In this document: one piece after another, positions 4,482-12,807 of the stretch
Position numbering within the stretch: the stretch's first letter is position 1
Layout: the number at the start of each line of letters is the position of its first letter
Source: a virus
Virus record (IMG/VR): IMGVR_UViG_3300042691_027661
Span: 1 to 38,101 of that record
Direction: 5' to 3' (one strand)
DNA: 38,101 bases
Position numbers and translations under genes: made by a program
The notes under the pieces: generated by a model
The model's database searches: none
What the model was told of the DNA's origin: nothing
Seen by the model: only the letters and a program-made list of their open reading frames with translations

Positions 4482-4789
4482 GGTTGAACCCCCACCCGCA
4501 CCGTCATCCCGGTGGTGCTCCCGCGCTCGTCCTTGTTGATTTCGACGGTATAGGTCCTTGTCGACCCGCTCAGGGCCTTGGCCACCTCGCTGGCCACGAT
4601 TTTGGCAATGTTCTGCGCATCTGCCCGAGGCTGGTTGGCCTCGCGCACATCTCGCAGCATTTCCCGGAATGCTTCCACAACATCCCTCGGATTGCTGTCT
4701 GGTTCATGCCGCGGCTCTGGCCTCGGTTCCTGGGGCACCACCGGCGTGGCCGGCATCTTCCGCAACGGCATATTCAACCGCCCAAGCAT
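4478..4789 (-). CDS. Hypothetical protein, 103 aa, overlapping the end of the giant gene
   Basis: The start at 4789 lies inside the last codons of the 2677-aa gene (16-nt overlap) and is preceded by AGGAGG 9 nt upstream, which favours it over the alternative ATG at 4771 just past the giant gene's stop. The N-terminus is Pro/Arg-rich, the middle (about 35-75) is an amphipathic helix, and the C-terminus has alternating charged and Val/Thr residues suggesting beta strands. No family recognised. The overlap implies coupled translation with the giant protein. Confidence 0.65.
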   Translation of the reverse strand: MLGRLNMPLRKMPATPVVPQEPRPEPRHEPDSNPRDVVEAFREMLRDVREANQPRADAQNIAKIVASEVAKALSGSTRTYTVEINKDERGSTTGMTVRVGVQP

Positions 4790-7700
4790 CGCAGCACCCT
4801 CCTGAGCGCAGCCAGGTCTTCGCCCAGCTCCCCGGCCAGCGCCTTGGCCACCCGGTATCCCTCGCCCTCGATCTCCAACCGCAGGTCATCCGGCACCTTG
4901 GCCAAAGCCTCCCCGCTGATCCTCTCGGCTTCGCGCAGGGCGCTGGCCAGATCCTGGGCTTGGGCCGCATCCGCGACTTTGGATCCGATCGACACCACCC
5001 CAGTCAGCGGATCGACCCGCATCCCGTCGCCTTCCACCAGGACCACCCGCTTGAACCTTCGGCCCTCGCGGATGCCTTCCATGCGGCCGGGCAAGTCCTT
5101 TTTTACGATTTGTCTCGTCGGTGCATCCGGGTCTGCGGCTTGCCGTCTGCTCTGTCTCTCCGCGGCTGCCAATGCTGCCACTTCCTTGGGCTTCCGTCCC
5201 GTGGCGTCTTCGCCCGGGATCCGATGCGGAGCCTCCTGCACTGGCTGGTCCTCGTTTTCCTCCGGTTCCCCCAGCCGCGCCAGCGGCCGATCCGCCAGGA
5301 TCCGTTCCCACACCGCCGGTTGCCCGAAGGGCAGGAAATAGCGGTAATTCCACTCCTTATAGACCGCATCCACCCCGGCATTTTCCAGCGATCCGCGCCA
5401 CGTATCCAGCTCCCGGCTGGATGACTTGCCAGTGATCTCGGCCCGCATCTCCCCGCCAAAGCGCACCCGCTTGATCTTCCAGCCGTTTCTCAGGACGGCC
5501 GTCTGCCCGTTCTCCACGGCCTGCATCACCTCCGCTGGTGCCAGGATCTTGGCATTCGCATCGGCCACCCCCAGGTCCTGCATCACCTGATCGATCTGAT
5601 ACGGCTGGATGACGCGCCCCAGGATGGACCGACCATCCTGCAAGGTCGCTCGCATGGCCCGCACGTCCGTACTCGGCAGACGATCCCACACCGGCAACAA
5701 GGCACCGGAAAACAGGTGCATGGCTTCGACCCTGAACTCCGGAGCCTTGGCCAACTCGTCAGACCATAGGCTTCTCGCCGTCTCCTCGTCGATCTGTCGG
5801 TATTTTCCGAACTCAGACCGAGGAAGAAGGTCAGAAAATCCATTGATGCCGATCTTGGAATAGGTCGTTTCGATTCGTCCCTGTTTATCGGTCTTTGTTC
5901 TGTCGCTGCTTGACAGGATCCATACCCGATTGCTGCGTTCATGACGAACAAAAGAGACTTCCCCGGATCTGGACCAATTCCTGCCATTTGCCAGAGCCTG
6001 ATCGAAGTCGATGGTCTTGTTCCGTTTCGATACCTGCAAGTCATGCCGGATGGTCGTGGCCCCGCTCTTGGCATCGGTATGGACCACCTGCTGCCCGGTT
6101 TCCTCGATCTTGTCGGCCTTCAGGGTTTCCAACCCCACGTCCAGGGTGCCATTGGCCTTCTGAATCTCGATGGTCTTGTCCAACCGCTCCTGGAAGGCGT
6201 CGAACACCTGGTTCTGCATGTCGGTGCTCAGACTCAGCATGCGGTTCAGGAATTGCCGCATTTCCGGGGTTTCCACCTTCCCGGATGCGCCATCCCGGAT
6301 CGCCAATCCCGTCTCGGCCTCAAACTCCGCGACACTGACCCCAGGGATCTTCCCGTAGGCCAGATCCTTGGTGAACCAATCCAGGGCCGTCTCGGCGGCA
6401 TCGCTCTCCAGGTTGTCGGCCGCGCTGAACAGCCCCCCGGATCCGGCCTGCCGCTGGCCCTTGGTCAAGGCTCCCAGTTGATCCAGGCGTCTGGCGATGG
6501 TGGAAATAAACCGCTTCTGCGCCCGCAAATCGGTCGAAGTCAGGATGAAGGTAGGCGGCTGGGCCTGATTGGTCCGATGGCTGCGCCCCAGGCCTTGCAG
6601 GGCGCTGTCCGCCCGCCATCCCGGTTGCAGCACGTAATGCCGCCGGGGCCGCTGGTTCTTGGCCTTGCGATCGGCGTGGAAGCTGAACCCGGTGCCACCG
6701 GCCGCGCTGAAGATCAGGATCTTGCGTTTGTCATCCTGGAACTCGGCCGCCTCCTTCATGGCCTTGGCCTGGGATCGTTTCTCCTGCACCGTCTTCCAGG
6801 ATCCGTCCGCCTGCTTCTTGCCGACCACCCGCACCGTGCGGCCCGACACCTCGGCCACCTGATCCGGCCCGAAGGCCGCCAGGATCTGCTCCATCGGCCC
6901 GTCCGGGGTGCGGATGTCTGCCAGGTTCTTCAGCAGTTGATTGCGCATGGCCACGGCCTGGGGGTTCTCCACCAGGTTGCCCTTGCTGTCCTTGACCGGC
7001 TCCGACGTGGTATTGCCATTTTTGTCCGTGACCTCCTGGTATTGCACGGTCGGAAAGCCGTTCTTCACCGCCTGCATCAGCATCTCACGCGGCGTCAGGT
7101 CCAGACTGGACAGGTCATCCTCGTCGTCATCTTCTTCTGCCTGTTTTGCCTCCCTGGCCTGCAAGGCCCGCTTGGTGGCCGCTTCGTTGGTGTTCACCAG
7201 TTGCACCACCGGGGCATCGCCGCGTTCCAGATCGGCCTGCATGCTCTGGATCACCGCCGGCATCTGCATGCCGGTCAGCACCTGGTTGAAGAATCGCTGG
7301 TGAGCGTTCCAGAACGCCCCGATGGCGTTCTTTCTGGCGTCTCGGTTCTTTCCCTGCCGCGTCGATTCCAGGGCGGCCCAGATGTTGCGCAGCACCACCT
7401 GCCAGGCCTTGGCCAGCTCATTGTAGATGGCCGTCTGATCCTCGGTCAGGTTATGGGTCAGGCGCTCATAGCCCACCCCGCGAAAGCTGATCGACCGGGC
7501 CAGATACCGGCCGGTGGCCTTCAGATCCCGGGCCACGAGTTCCATGCCCGCCAGACCAGACGCCGCAATGTCATTGATGAACGCCTTGGCATCGGCAAAG
7601 GCCGTCCCATCGCCCCACAAGCCCAGGCGCGTGGCATAGGCCAGGTTGCTCACCTCGGTGGCTCCGGTGGCGCTCACATACAGCACCCGAGCCTTGGGCA

Positions 7701-10700
7701 AGGACTGCTGCAACAGCAAACCGGCCAGCGCCATCTGCGACGGTTTCTTGACCCCACGCCGACCCTTGATGGCCACCGCATTTCCCATGTTGTGGGCCTC
7801 ATCGAAGGCGATCACCCCGTCAAAGTCCTTGCCCAGCCACTCCACCAGTTGCTGGATGCGACCGCCCGGTTTGACCTCTTTCCCATGGTCAGCATTGGCC
7901 AGGGCATCCTGCGCCCCGGATTTGGTGGCCAGGGTTTTGTAGCTGATAAAGGCGATGCCATTGCGTGGCGGGATTTTCCCCGTGGCCTTCACGTTCTTGA
8001 TGGCAAACAGATCCTCGGCCTTCCCGCCGAGTCCGGTCCAATCGCGTTGGGCATCCGCGATCAGTCCCGGCTTCATGCTCACCCACACCGCCCGCTTCCG
8101 GCCATGGTTGGCCTGATCCAGGATCACCCCGGCGATGGTGCGGCCCTTGCCCACCCCGGTCCCGTCCCCGATGAAATATCCTTGCCGCTGACCATTGGGC
8201 AGCAGGTTTTCCATGGCCGCCCCGGCCCGGACCAACTGCTCCAACTGGGCATCCGACAACCTTCCCTCGGTGATGACCTTCTGGTCCAGCCGCGGTTCAT
8301 AGGTCACCCGCGGAGCCTTCACCGACGCCATGGCCTGCGATTCCACCAGCTCGGCAGGATGCGGCTTGGTTCCTAGGATGGCCAGAGACGGTTTGTAGGT
8401 GGCGTAGGTTTCGCCCTGATCCTCAACCGGCCCGCTGTCGGCCTGCTCTACTCGGACGGATCCGTGACCAGGCTGCTCAACGTGTCCAGCAGGTAGGTCC
8501 CCGCGCTTTCCAGATCCATCTGCGACAGTTCCTGCGGATCCACGTCCTCCAGGGCCGCCATCGCTCCCTTGGGATTCTGGTTCAGATCGCTGACCAGGCA
8601 GTCGATTCCGTCGCGGTCCAGGGCGTCGATCCCCCGATACCGGCGGTACAGTTCCGGAAACTGCTCCAGGGCTTCCGCCACCAGGCTCGCCACTCCCAGG
8701 CTTCCCGGCTGCACCGTCTTCTTGTCCTTCTCCAGAATCGCCTGGGCCGCCCGATTGAGCGGGTGGCGGTTCAGGGTTTCGCGCAGCTTGAACAGGCGCT
8801 TGACGTCCATCGCGGACTCCTTTGAGCAGTGTACCCAGTTCAGCCAGCGATGCCACCGTTCCCGTCACCGCCGCCTGCGTTCCCAGGGGCGTTTCCCCCT
8901 CGGCCGGCTTGTCGATGACCAGCAGCCGGGTCCCGAAGGTGGTGCCATACTTGTGGTACACCGTCCCCGGCACCTCGATGTTGGCCCGAACATGCGCTTG
9001 CCGTCCCAGCGTGGCCCACCACTCACGGTAAGCCTTGGCGTTGAAGGCCATGCCTTCGCCCACGATGGCCACCAGCCGGCCGCCCGGCGGCAGCAGTTGG
9101 AAGGCTTGCTCGATGTGCCTGGCCCCGGTCAGGAGGTCCCGCTTGTCGGTTCGCCCGGCGGTGGCGCTGAACGGCGGGTTCATCACCACCACGCCCGGCT
9201 GCGGCTTGCCCTGGGCCGAATAGATCGCCGCCAGATGGTCGGCGTTCTCCGTGGTCATCTCAATGCCCAGCGTCTCGGCCAGCTTGGCCCGCCGCTCGGA
9301 CAGTTCATTGCCCAGCACCCGATCCCCGGCCATACGCCCGAACACCGCCAGCGACCCGGTTCCCACGGATGGTTCCAGGTACACCTCACCCGGCCGCAGG
9401 TTGGCCACCCAGTTGGCCATGAAGGCGTAGCTGGGCGGCGTGCTGAATTGCTGGTGCGAGATCTGCTCCCCGGTCCTGGCCGTCTGCGTCGGCAGGTCAC
9501 GTTCCAGATCGGCCATGAACTTCAGCCCCTCGGCTGGGCTGTCGGCCGTTGGGCTGGCCAGATGGGGGTGCCGGGCAATGACCTTGTTCACCGCCAGTTG
9601 CAGCGCCTCGTAGGCGTCCTGCACCTTGTAGGCCCCCTGGCCCTGCGTCCCGCCAAAGGCCTGGTCGCAGATCCGGAACAGCTTTTGCCAGTTCAGGGCT
9701 TGGCCGGCCTCATCCAGGGCATCCGCCAGGGCCTCGGCCGCGGCTATGGTGCGGGTGACTTGATCCTGGGGGTTTCGCACGACCGGCGCAGGCATGTCCA
9801 CAGGCTGCGTTGGGGGAGCTTCCTCTGCTCCTGGACTCGACTTTGGAGCACCAGGTGCAGCGTCATGCGGGAGATCCTGCGCTGTACGATCCGGCATTGC
9901 CGGTGCTGCCGCAGGACGTTCCGACTCAGGGCGTGTAGATTCAGGGCGAACTGACGCAGGTGGTTGTTCGGCATGTTTTTTCTTTTTTGATTTAATTTGC
10001 ACCACGTCTTTAGATCCTACATTATTAACCCTAACTAGAAAATTACCATTCCATTGCCTTTCATAATTTGGCCAACCGCTTGTTTCTTTAGTGTTATTAT
10101 GGATTGTTTCAATTTGATCTGGTGTCAGGCCAAAATTGACAAGACTATGCCATTCAGACTTGAGTTTTGTGCCGTCACTAAAATAAAAAACCGGGTCTGA
10201 CCTACCTAAACCAGCTTGTTCCGTAGTTATTTTTACCAACGTTGTTTTGCGCCATGCTTCACCATTTATCGCTCCTGCGGCAGCAGCAAGCGACTCAAAT
10301 GTTTTTCGATTTATTTCACGTATAGAACCAACCTCATACAAAGGCTCTCCATCGCTTCCTTTTTCCTTGAGCAGCTTTCCGGTATAGAAATGCAGTTTCC
10401 CACTGTGAAACCAACCTCCAGTATCATGGGTATCGTTATCTAGTGACACCGAACGCAACATTGATATTCCGGCTTCCGGTCTATTTTCTGCGCTGTTCCA
10501 ACTCGGACGTTCTGGATCTGCAATATTCCAGCGATAACCAACGGCATATCCTGGTGGCAATGTCCATTCATTATTGCTCGTTGACACGTCACTTTCGTCT
10601 TTTATCGTTTCGTTCTCGTCGCCTTCACCGGCGCGGATAGAAACGCCAGCAACACTGGCCTGATCGGCTTGTCCGATCTTTTGACCTTGGTCCATGCGAC

Positions 10701-12807
10701 CAAGGTCATTTTTATTACCGGGTTTTGCTTCCGTACCCGGTGTGGCGTCCTGGGCCTTCTTCACGAACCCCCGCACCCGCGCCCCCAGGGCATGGATGCT
10801 AGGATCCGCTCGGTGATCCTTGATGACCTGCTCCCAGGCTTTGACCCGTCCGGGATCGCTGGGCAGCTTCAGCATGCCGAACTTCCCGTATTCCTCCCCG
10901 ATGGCCCGCTCGATGGTGGCATTGGCGGTGGATGGCGTGTTCTTCAGGGCGTTCTGCACGTCCGGCCGCTCGGCCACGGCCCGCGACAGGTCGATGGACG
11001 CCTCGGTCACGGATCCGGGTTCCACAGCGGGCGTTGTGGGCTTCAGAACGGGCTTGCTGGCCAACTGCTCATCCAGCGTGGCCTGTCCCTCGGCCGGCGT
11101 GGCCGGTTTCGGCGTCACCTCGCCTTGGCGTCCCAGGGTCTTCAGGATGGCCTTGGCCTTGCTCACCACCTTGGGCGGCTTGTCGTTCTTCTTCTTCTTG
11201 GGCCGCTGGGCCTCCCGCCGCAGCACCTCCACCGCGCTGTCCCCCAGCAGTTCCTGATCCTCCGGCTTCATCGTCTGAATGTCCGGGATCTTCGGGGCCA
11301 TGCTGACCTTGGCGAACGCGGATCCGCCGTTGCGCCAATCAGTTACGCCGCTTGGTGTTTCGGATGTGCTTCGAATATCATTCGGAGCCGTCGCCGGCAG
11401 GGCATTGGATTCCTCATCCAACCGCTGGGCATGCTCCGGATGCTCCTGCTCCAGATCGGCCATGGCGCTGGAAATGAAGGCTTCTCCAGCCTGACCCTGA
11501 TACTTCTCGCCGGCCTTCAACAGGGCCAGCATCTGCGCCTTGTACTCCTCATAGCTGATCGGCTTTTTGCGCAGCGTCCGTTCCAAGGCTGCCGGCGGCG
11601 GGTTCGCCACCTCCTCAACAGGGACCGGCTGCCGGGCCACCGGTCCGGTGTCCACGTCCGCAGACACGCCCTGCGGACTTCCCCCGGCCCTCTGAGCTTC
11701 TTCGTCCGCCAACTGCTCGGCCAACCGCGCCTTGATCGCTGCCAGCTTGTCGACGTCCGCCTGCCGCAACGTGGCATCGGTGTCCCGCAACTCTGGCCGC
11801 ACCTGGCGCGGCATGTCCGGAACCTCGCTGACCAGATCCGTCATGCTCTGCCGCTGCAATTCCGGCAGCATCTCACGATACAGCGCATCATCCTCGCGTT
11901 GTGCCGTGCGCAGGTGGAGCTGTTTAGCAAGCTCGTCACTAGATAGTTCAGCCCCTGCGAACCCCGCACCCATCAGACCGCCAACCGCCCCCGCCACGGT
12001 CAGCCGCCTGGCCAATGTGGCTGTATCCAGGGCATTAGGATCCTCGCCGCTCATGGCCTCCCACACCGCATGTCCCAACTCGGTGACGACCTCCTCGGAT
12101 CCCTCCCATCCGGCATCCTTGGCCAGTGTCATCAGTCGGTCTCGGATCATCCGGACGCCATGCTCCTTGCCGGCTCCCAGGATCACCCGCTCTGCACCAG
12201 TCTTGCCGAACATGCTGGGGATGGCCGTCTCGATGGTCCAGTTGGCCAAGCCTGACCCGATCCCGTTCTGCCGGGCGGCCACGGCCCCTTCCCGCAGGGC
12301 CAGGGGCTGCACCGCTGCCCCGACCTCCAGGGCCGCTCGCAGCTTCGGTAGCGATGCCAGGGCCTTCACCCCGCGCACCGGGGCTGCCAGCGGACCGCCG
12401 GCCAGCATCAGCGGAAGGTCTGCCGCCACCCCGCCCGCCCCCTGGCGAATGGACGTGAGCAAACCAGGATTGGCGATCTGCACCGATTCCGCGGTACTCT
12501 CGGCATCCTCCTGCTCCGATGGACTCCCCAGGCCCAGGGCCTGCTGGGTTGAGCTAATCGACCGCATCGCCCCCGACACCTCTGGAGCCAGCCATCCCAA
12601 GCGACCCAAGCGGGAGCGCAGCCGGGCATCATCCTCGCTCGCCTGCTCCTCGCGCAGGATCCCGGACTCGCTCATCCGATCCAGGTTGCGCAGGGCATCC
12701 GCCTCAACGCTGCCTGCGCCCTCGATGAACCGGTCCACCGGATCCATGTCCTGGGACACCGGATCCAGACCAGCCGCACGGATGAAGGCATCGAGCTTGC
12801 CGGGCAT
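4774..12807 (-). CDS. Giant polyvalent protein: N6-adenine methyltransferase plus Strawberry-notch/DarB-type helicase
   Basis: 2677 aa from ATG 12807. The N-terminal 300 residues contain Ala/Gly-rich hydrophobic stretches typical of ejected virion proteins, followed by Pro/Lys-rich linkers. A methyltransferase domain has a glycine motif EPSVGTG at about 1145-1151 and NPPF at 1210-1213 (amino-methyltransferase catalytic motif). A superfamily 2 helicase has Walker A GDGTGVGKGRT at 1547-1557, DEAH at 1669-1672 and motif VI GRSHRTNQ at 2074-2081. Methyltransferase-helicase fusions such as P1 DarB are packaged and injected to protect incoming DNA from restriction. Its place just after three probable internal virion proteins supports the same role here. 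Oddities: an AT-rich insert at residues about 730-946, and a nested ORF in the linker (about 1333-1454). Confidence 0.9.
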   Translation of the reverse strand: MPGKLDAFIRAAGLDPVSQDMDPVDRFIEGAGSVEADALRNLDRMSESGILREEQASEDDARLRSRLGRLGWLAPEVSGAMRSISSTQQALGLGSPSEQEDAESTAESVQIANPGLLTSIRQGAGGVAADLPLMLAGGPLAAPVRGVKALASLPKLRAALEVGAAVQPLALREGAVAARQNGIGSGLANWTIETAIPSMFGKTGAERVILGAGKEHGVRMIRDRLMTLAKDAGWEGSEEVVTELGHAVWEAMSGEDPNALDTATLARRLTVAGAVGGLMGAGFAGAELSSDELAKQLHLRTAQREDDALYREMLPELQRQSMTDLVSEVPDMPRQVRPELRDTDATLRQADVDKLAAIKARLAEQLADEEAQRAGGSPQGVSADVDTGPVARQPVPVEEVANPPPAALERTLRKKPISYEEYKAQMLALLKAGEKYQGQAGEAFISSAMADLEQEHPEHAQRLDEESNALPATAPNDIRSTSETPSGVTDWRNGGSAFAKVSMAPKIPDIQTMKPEDQELLGDSAVEVLRREAQRPKKKKNDKPPKVVSKAKAILKTLGRQGEVTPKPATPAEGQATLDEQLASKPVLKPTTPAVEPGSVTEASIDLSRAVAERPDVQNALKNTPSTANATIERAIGEEYGKFGMLKLPSDPGRVKAWEQVIKDHRADPSIHALGARVRGFVKKAQDATPGTEAKPGNKNDLGRMDQGQKIGQADQASVAGVSIRAGEGDENETIKDESDVSTSNNEWTLPPGYAVGYRWNIADPERPSWNSAENRPEAGISMLRSVSLDNDTHDTGGWFHSGKLHFYTGKLLKEKGSDGEPLYEVGSIREINRKTFESLAAAAGAINGEAWRKTTLVKITTEQAGLGRSDPVFYFSDGTKLKSEWHSLVNFGLTPDQIETIHNNTKETSGWPNYERQWNGNFLVRVNNVGSKDVVQIKSKKKKHAEQPPASVRPESTRPESERPAAAPAMPDRTAQDLPHDAAPGAPKSSPGAEEAPPTQPVDMPAPVVRNPQDQVTRTIAAAEALADALDEAGQALNWQKLFRICDQAFGGTQGQGAYKVQDAYEALQLAVNKVIARHPHLASPTADSPAEGLKFMADLERDLPTQTARTGEQISHQQFSTPPSYAFMANWVANLRPGEVYLEPSVGTGSLAVFGRMAGDRVLGNELSERRAKLAETLGIEMTTENADHLAAIYSAQGKPQPGVVVMNPPFSATAGRTDKRDLLTGARHIEQAFQLLPPGGRLVAIVGEGMAFNAKAYREWWATLGRQAHVRANIEVPGTVYHKYGTTFGTRLLVIDKPAEGETPLGTQAAVTGTVASLAELGTLLKGVRDGRQAPVQAARNPEPPPAQSGGPGDSGEGQEDGAAGKPGSGEPGGGSPGAVSGTVPPVSGDRRPGPRRNRLPGQRSEPESQGSDGGPGGRGSAGTVADGSGKRGDLPAGHVEQPGHGSVRVEQADSGPVEDQGETYATYKPSLAILGTKPHPAELVESQAMASVKAPRVTYEPRLDQKVITEGRLSDAQLEQLVRAGAAMENLLPNGQRQGYFIGDGTGVGKGRTIAGVILDQANHGRKRAVWVSMKPGLIADAQRDWTGLGGKAEDLFAIKNVKATGKIPPRNGIAFISYKTLATKSGAQDALANADHGKEVKPGGRIQQLVEWLGKDFDGVIAFDEAHNMGNAVAIKGRRGVKKPSQMALAGLLLQQSLPKARVLYVSATGATEVSNLAYATRLGLWGDGTAFADAKAFINDIAASGLAGMELVARDLKATGRYLARSISFRGVGYERLTHNLTEDQTAIYNELAKAWQVVLRNIWAALESTRQGKNRDARKNAIGAFWNAHQRFFNQVLTGMQMPAVIQSMQADLERGDAPVVQLVNTNEAATKRALQAREAKQAEEDDDEDDLSSLDLTPREMLMQAVKNGFPTVQYQEVTDKNGNTTSEPVKDSKGNLVENPQAVAMRNQLLKNLADIRTPDGPMEQILAAFGPDQVAEVSGRTVRVVGKKQADGSWKTVQEKRSQAKAMKEAAEFQDDKRKILIFSAAGGTGFSFHADRKAKNQRPRRHYVLQPGWRADSALQGLGRSHRTNQAQPPTFILTSTDLRAQKRFISTIARRLDQLGALTKGQRQAGSGGLFSAADNLESDAAETALDWFTKDLAYGKIPGVSVAEFEAETGLAIRDGASGKVETPEMRQFLNRMLSLSTDMQNQVFDAFQERLDKTIEIQKANGTLDVGLETLKADKIEETGQQVVHTDAKSGATTIRHDLQVSKRNKTIDFDQALANGRNWSRSGEVSFVRHERSNRVWILSSSDRTKTDKQGRIETTYSKIGINGFSDLLPRSEFGKYRQIDEETARSLWSDELAKAPEFRVEAMHLFSGALLPVWDRLPSTDVRAMRATLQDGRSILGRVIQPYQIDQVMQDLGVADANAKILAPAEVMQAVENGQTAVLRNGWKIKRVRFGGEMRAEITGKSSSRELDTWRGSLENAGVDAVYKEWNYRYFLPFGQPAVWERILADRPLARLGEPEENEDQPVQEAPHRIPGEDATGRKPKEVAALAAAERQSRRQAADPDAPTRQIVKKDLPGRMEGIREGRRFKRVVLVEGDGMRVDPLTGVVSIGSKVADAAQAQDLASALREAERISGEALAKVPDDLRLEIEGEGYRVAKALAGELGEDLAALRRVLRCLGG
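8448..8810 (-). CDS. Overprinted 120-aa ORF nested in the giant methyltransferase-helicase gene
   Basis: Same strand as the giant gene but a different frame. AAAGGAG stands 6 nt before the ATG at 8810, a near-ideal ribosome binding site. By my hand count about 102 of 120 codons end in G or C here, as in the phage's ordinary genes, while only about 45 of 121 giant-frame codons over the same bases do. In this frame the protein has balanced composition with amphipathic helices and many Leu; in the giant frame the same DNA gives a Gly/Pro/Ser/Arg-rich linker between methyltransferase and helicase. Either this is a real nested gene, or it is an older coding frame trapped by compensating frameshifts. 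No family recognised. The stop is TAG at 8448-8450. Confidence 0.65.
   Translation of the reverse strand: MDVKRLFKLRETLNRHPLNRAAQAILEKDKKTVQPGSLGVASLVAEALEQFPELYRRYRGIDALDRDGIDCLVSDLNQNPKGAMAALEDVDPQELSQMDLESAGTYLLDTLSSLVTDPSE
9970..10620. other. AT-rich insert inside the giant gene
   Basis: Base composition drops abruptly from the GC-rich surroundings to AT-rich sequence (for example the TTTTTTCTTTTTTG run near 9975), then recovers near 10620. The reading frame stays open and encodes roughly residues 730-946, with many Asn, Lys, Trp and aromatic residues (for example WTLPPGYAVGY and GGWFHSGKLHFYTG). The stretch looks like a horizontally acquired domain spliced in frame between linker regions. 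No family recognised. Confidence 0.7.

Follow-up and report, generated by a model that had tools for sequence, protein, structure and literature searches.

Does a phage gene that encodes two fused enzymes also carry a complete second gene in another reading frame? The question is raised by a giant open reading frame (ORF) in the window, the 38,101-nt stretch of viral DNA analysed here (positions 1 to 38,101 of IMG/VR virus record IMGVR_UViG_3300042691_027661). The parts of the giant ORF that bear on it are the following.

4774-12807, minus strand: giant ORF of 2677 aa, encoding an adenine-type DNA methyltransferase (MTase), a linker and a strawberry-notch-type SF2 helicase
8896-9495, minus strand: DNA methyltransferase region of the giant protein (aa about 1105-1304), with an NPPF motif and PHROG methyltransferase matches
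8413-8799, minus strand: giant-frame linker, Gly/Pro/Ser/Arg-rich and of low complexity; the alternative frame of the nested gene
7417-8364, minus strand: AAA_34 (strawberry notch, P-loop NTPase pore-1; PF13872), aa 1482-1797, E 7e-111
6124-6897, minus strand: Helicase_C_4 (strawberry notch C-terminal; PF13871), aa 1971-2228, E 7e-82

A terminase gene precedes the giant gene, with both on the same strand, and a region resembling LPD36 is inferred ahead of the MTase. The predicted fusion of an adenine MTase and an SF2 helicase in one polypeptide qualifies the giant ORF as a DarB-like dyad. Dyads of this type have been described as counter-restriction polyvalent proteins, and DarB of phage P1 is a component of the virion head (PMC5512222). 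The giant gene shares the architecture of the DarB-type adenine MTase plus SWI2/SNF2 dyad (phage P1 DarB; the Methylomonas strawberry-notch protein WP_020485828.1; PMC5512222), in which an NPPF adenine-type MTase precedes an SF2 helicase in phages and plasmids; its own helicase is of the strawberry-notch type. It differs in that a nested gene sits in the linker between MTase and helicase; the term "overlap" is absent from the main text of PMC5512222.

From comparison of sequences alone, we consider it nearly certain that the MTase-helicase gene contains, in its +1 frame at 8448-8810 (minus strand), a genuine second gene that encodes a protein. Neither partner in this arrangement is novel in kind, as giant genes of this sort and nested phage genes are both known. 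What sets the pair apart is its breadth, the existence of free-standing homologues of the nested protein, and an overlapped linker that may itself be the overprint.

The nested reading frame at the window locus

8448-8810, minus strand: nested (overlapping) gene of 120 codons, ATG to TAG, whose product is predicted to be all-helical
8817-8823, minus strand: Shine-Dalgarno-like AAAGGAG, 6 nt before the nested ATG and inside the giant codons ..LLKGVRDGR..

The first-pass annotation of this DNA had proposed, without stating the strand, an overprinted gene of 120 codons here, in a different frame on the same strand as the giant gene and 6 nt behind AAAGGAG. We recovered each of these particulars: the ORF lies on the minus strand, entirely within 4774-12807 and in the +1 frame, and so meets the definition of an overlapping gene, and the motif occupies 8823-8817. 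G+C content at codon positions 1, 2 and 3 is 0.69, 0.37 and 0.85 in the nested frame, a normal coding pattern, and 0.85, 0.69 and 0.38 for those bases read in the giant frame, in line with the third-position values of about 85% and 37% counted in the first-pass annotation. Composition over the nested stretch likewise agrees with the earlier description of the giant frame as a Gly/Pro/Ser/Arg-rich linker.

Is this enough to infer a gene? By itself the window locus is suggestive only. When the synonymous codons of the giant frame are shuffled or redrawn, the +1 frame remains open with a probability of 0.29-0.53, which is not significant. The case for a real gene is comparative, because the ORF recurs at the same place in every relative with a long linker.

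The giant frame has a third-position G+C (GC3) of about 0.8 or more in the flanking MTase and helicase. At 9928-10767 (giant ORF, minus strand) it falls to 0.26-0.49, against about 0.8 elsewhere. This part of the giant gene, ahead of the MTase, seems to be a segment of different composition, perhaps a recent acquisition.

Recurrence among related giant genes

Relatives of the helicase were collected from IMG/VR, GTDB genomes and PLSDB plasmids, and the linker was defined as the stretch from the end of MTase homology to the start of helicase homology. The resulting 158 distinct giant genes, from phages, plasmids and bacterial genomes, fall into two classes with nothing between them: 109 have a long linker (316-1171 nt) and 49 a short one (151-283 nt). 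A +1 ORF fills the linker or its first part in 109/109 long-linker loci, and none was detected in the 49 short-linker relatives. Two of the long-linker loci were judged by eye, L134 having an N-gap and L057 lacking an ATG at the usual place, with a GTG one codon earlier. In 107 measured loci the nested ORF spans 87-163 codons, and its start codon occupies the identical homologous position in 105, within a motif of the giant frame that follows the pattern LLEG[VI]R[ND]xR; the start codon is uncertain in a few loci (L103, L114, L057). Stops that would break the nested frame, which the first-pass annotation had named as grounds for rejecting a separate gene, occur in none of the 107 (0/107). Its proposal of an overprinted gene in a linker between two antirestriction-type domains is supported.

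Of 187 loci, 185 have MTase and helicase in a common frame, relative to which the nested ORF is in +1; of the two exceptions, L134 is an artefact of its N-gap and L176 has no nested gene. Six apparent giant-frame stops in L134 also belong to the assembly N-gap and are not real.

Two compensating frameshifts, the alternative that had been offered for this locus, or a sequencing error could have displaced what is really an in-frame domain of the giant protein. Such a displacement would account for the out-of-phase look of giant-frame codon-position GC here, but it can be dismissed with practical certainty, as the out-of-phase state is found in all 109 long-linker relatives, across independent assemblies of 39-69% GC, no relative has the nested sequence in the giant frame, whether through a frameshift or otherwise, and the ATG and Shine-Dalgarno (SD) site keep a fixed place.

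Several loci depart from the common plan. In L023, L033, L039, L093, L099, L108 and L128, the nested gene is followed by a further insert, 300-800 nt of giant-frame sequence that separate its stop from the helicase. In the Methylotuvimicrobium plasmid MEALZ_p (L034:1495-1531), a stop codon interrupts the MTase region, so that a small ORF upstream is cut off from the annotated giant gene. L229/L232 (G1102:C30) and L208 (G586:C93), from bacterial genomes, are giant genes in decay whose nested frame is broken too; these are natural pseudogenes of the giant-nested pair. Bacteroides phage BS-TP4 (L037) possesses a giant gene that is only very distantly related (22% identity), and between its MTase and helicase lies a +1 ORF of ~115 codons; homology of this ORF to the family could not be detected (E 27), and it was excluded from the count.

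Selection in both frames

Are both frames maintained? Expected stops in the nested frame were computed with the giant amino acids fixed, and those in the giant frame with the nested amino acids fixed and the codon usage of the helicase. Over the 107 loci about 185 nested-frame stops were expected and none was observed, a zero that is partly by construction, each ORF having been followed to its stop, though the ORF lengths do fill the linker. For the giant frame 618 stops were expected and again none was seen, with a median chance per locus of 0.003. The absence of stops from both frames suggests that both the small protein and the fused MTase-helicase are maintained.

This count also bears on the idea that MTase, small protein and helicase are three separate genes in a row, the giant ORF being open merely by chance. 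The normal codon signature of the nested frame and the low complexity of the giant linker are what such a row of genes would produce; against it, an accidentally open giant frame would have to have escaped all of the expected stops, and published polyvalent proteins carry MTase and helicase within a single polypeptide (PMC5512222). We give it only the slightest chance of being right.

The nested frame is also the better conserved of the two. Amino acid identity over the shared bases is higher for the nested than for the giant frame in 142/142 pairs and in 25/25 independent (non-overlapping) pairs; the alignments were guided by the nested protein, and many of the closest pairs are ungapped. Substitutions in the independent pairs are distributed over nested positions 1, 2 and 3 as 31, 25 and 44%. 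Nested position 2, which is giant position 3, thus takes the fewest changes, the opposite of the helicase region, where giant position 3 takes 62%. The comparison of codon-position GC in both frames, put forward earlier as a check, came out the same way throughout: in 107/107 loci the nested frame exceeds the giant frame in third-position GC, and its values track the GC3 of the helicase (r 0.84). The identity and substitution patterns show purifying selection on the predicted product of ~120 aa.

Inferred translation of the nested gene

How would the small protein be made? Sequence comparison reveals a conserved ATG behind a putative SD-like site at the end of MTase coding, with the giant frame kept open across the nested gene. 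An SD match of at least 4 nt lies upstream of the nested start in 103/107 loci; synonymous shuffling alone would yield 74%, so that SD conservation is only partly informative. A nested-frame stop is found upstream of the ATG within 2 codons in 23/107 loci and within 10 codons in 68/107, leaving in those loci little room for a frameshift from the MTase.

Could programmed ribosomal frameshifting nevertheless carry ribosomes from the MTase into the nested frame, making the small protein a C-terminal extension of a truncated MTase rather than a separate product? The nested ORF begins exactly at the end of MTase homology and is always in +1, as such a mechanism would predict. The upstream stops, however, leave little or no shift window, the start codon and SD site are conserved, and free-standing homologues have starts of their own at a similar place. 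We regard frameshifting as very unlikely, with a small residual chance. Internal initiation is the simplest reading, although initiation itself was not observed, and the nested gene and its internal initiation, taken jointly, remain highly probable. We infer, without expression data, that a single mRNA serves both products: the fused MTase-helicase, whose linker would be disordered, and the small protein, translated from the internal start.

Homology and predicted fold of the nested protein

A hidden Markov model (HMM) built from 76 phage copies matches nested ORFs of plasmids and bacterial genomes with E values down to 8.5e-27, in Pseudomonadota, Thermodesulfobacteriota, Bacillota, Myxococcota and SAR324. 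Four divergent Bacillota copies score poorly with it (E 0.04 to 4). No true decoy frame scores below E 2, the other entries there (L057 and L134) being themselves nested ORFs. Searched against 18,087 ORFs of all loci, the full profile gave 132 matches, all of them nested ORFs in the linker.

An AlphaFold2 model of the window protein, made from 103 aligned sequences, is confidently all-helical (pLDDT 88, pTM 0.82), as the first-pass annotation had anticipated in calling the protein balanced and helical; a second family member was modelled with pLDDT 87. Fold searches yielded nothing better than E 1 or Z 2.7: the best Foldseek E was 1.2 in the PDB and 1.4 in BFVD, a second look reached a best Z of 2.7, and a second model gave E 2.4 at best. 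Profile and sequence searches gave no Pfam, NCBIfam, PHROG, PADLOC or PDB family match. LPD36, a candidate identity for the nested protein, was ruled out because it lies N-terminal to the MTase. With the nested protein as query, the sole match among viral contigs was a contig with 100% identical DNA; tblastn returned nothing relevant in annotated phages and four records only in plasmids. The family is not listed in the annotated plasmid records that carry the nested gene, nor is it mentioned in the titles and abstracts of the open-access papers that our literature search covered. Automatic annotation thus misses a whole protein family in antirestriction-type genes of phages and plasmids.

Stand-alone homologues and the origin of the overlap

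Whole genomes with a nested gene normally have one copy, located in the giant gene. Stand-alone homologues, which the first-pass annotation did not foresee, exist as well. A Bacillota genome contains an intact 144-aa solo copy (L206, in L210) that is 42-44% identical to nested proteins; the would-be giant frame at this locus is full of stops, and the surrounding 10.5 kb contain no MTase or helicase. That the nested frame has outlasted the giant frame provides strong, independent support for its encoding a useful protein. Among 395 genomes of Thermodesulfobacteriota (the phylum of G009), 19 have matches, including 15 free-standing loci (L233-L247). By sequence, L235 (74% identity to a nested copy) and L237 cluster with particular nested copies and would appear to be recent escapes from giant genes. 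The other 13 form one clade (96/98) in varied chromosomal contexts, so that three copies (L206, L235, L237) and a 13-member clade are separated from giant genes in total. The unnamed L233-L247 genes are homologous to the nested family (HMM E about 1e-17 to 1e-25) and of similar length; unlike nested copies, they mostly lack both an overlapping gene and linkage to an MTase or helicase. The existence of free-standing chromosomal genes implies that the nested protein has a role independent of the overlap.

In a helicase tree of 158 rows, a quick tree with a midpoint root and many weak forks, the nested label needs three changes. The group without the nested gene (46 rows, support 97), consisting of alphaproteobacterial elements and one cyanobacterial locus, all with a short linker, lies within the nested-positive rows, which makes loss with shortening of the linker the likely direction. 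In a set of 27 whole genomes with a short-linker giant gene, which included no positive control, we detected no nested-family member. It appears that the MTase-helicase can function in the absence of the nested protein.

Which of the two frames came first? On present evidence the nested gene is, as judged by its distribution and conservation, an old overlapping gene. The nested frame is better conserved and normally coded, so the disordered linker of the giant protein, not the small gene, may be the overprint. A possible history, which we advance only tentatively, is fusion by overprinting. Genes for an MTase, the small protein and a helicase would have lain side by side, and translation of the middle gene in another frame would have joined the two enzymes into one polypeptide. 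The linker would thus have arisen de novo, the nested gene being older, with several later stand-alone escapes and one loss in alphaproteobacterial plasmids.

Classical phage genes nested in an alternative frame are E within D of phiX174 and Rz1 within Rz of lambda. The nested gene resembles these in being a complete small gene with its own start, on the same strand and inside a larger gene. It differs in two respects: homologues of its protein occur as free-standing chromosomal genes, and what it overlaps in the giant gene is no more than a low-complexity stretch linking two enzymes. To our knowledge, few overlapping genes beyond those of small viruses are both well supported and widely conserved, and for many candidates the evidence comes from a single strain. 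For the present family there are measurements on 107 sequences, start signals at a fixed place, constraint quantified in two frames, a nested-negative clade and free-standing homologues, and with such material the relative age of the frames becomes testable.

Possible functions

What might the small protein do? It could serve the giant protein, which is of the antirestriction type (polyvalent, DarB-like), as a dedicated partner, acting as its adaptor or regulator. The two would be produced in fixed linkage, and the small protein would act at DNA entry or virion loading; all of this is inferred, including the antirestriction activity itself. With no match to a named family or fold, this role rests only on linkage, and the linkage argument is weakened because the overlap itself enforces part of the linkage. 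We therefore hold a role in assisting or regulating the giant protein to be possible rather than probable.

Roughly level with it stands a role as an independent accessory protein, for example an anti-defence factor in its own right, the nested gene being real in either case; this too we rate somewhat short of an even chance. The nested gene survives in solo form where no giant gene is present, and an entire clade of giant genes lacks it. The solo copy L206 (in L210) lies near McrBC-like genes (L210:126-2842), and L235 adjoins an HKD plus Snf2 helicase (L235:1229-4570); these restriction- or defence-like neighbours of two solo copies are only a lead. Against independence, in mobile elements the gene is almost always found inside an MTase-helicase giant gene, and no loss by point mutation occurs among 107 intact giant genes.

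The neighbours of the solo genes point to no common function. They include NUDIX and rubrerythrin genes, both confirmed, and Ppx/GppA-like, Def/Fmt-like and PCMT-like genes recognised by eye. At one locus (L236) a NUDIX gene and the solo gene share about 25 nt at the start of the latter, and at another (L239:5427-6224, plus strand) the nested-protein domain is fused to the C-terminus of a NUDIX/MutT-like hydrolase.
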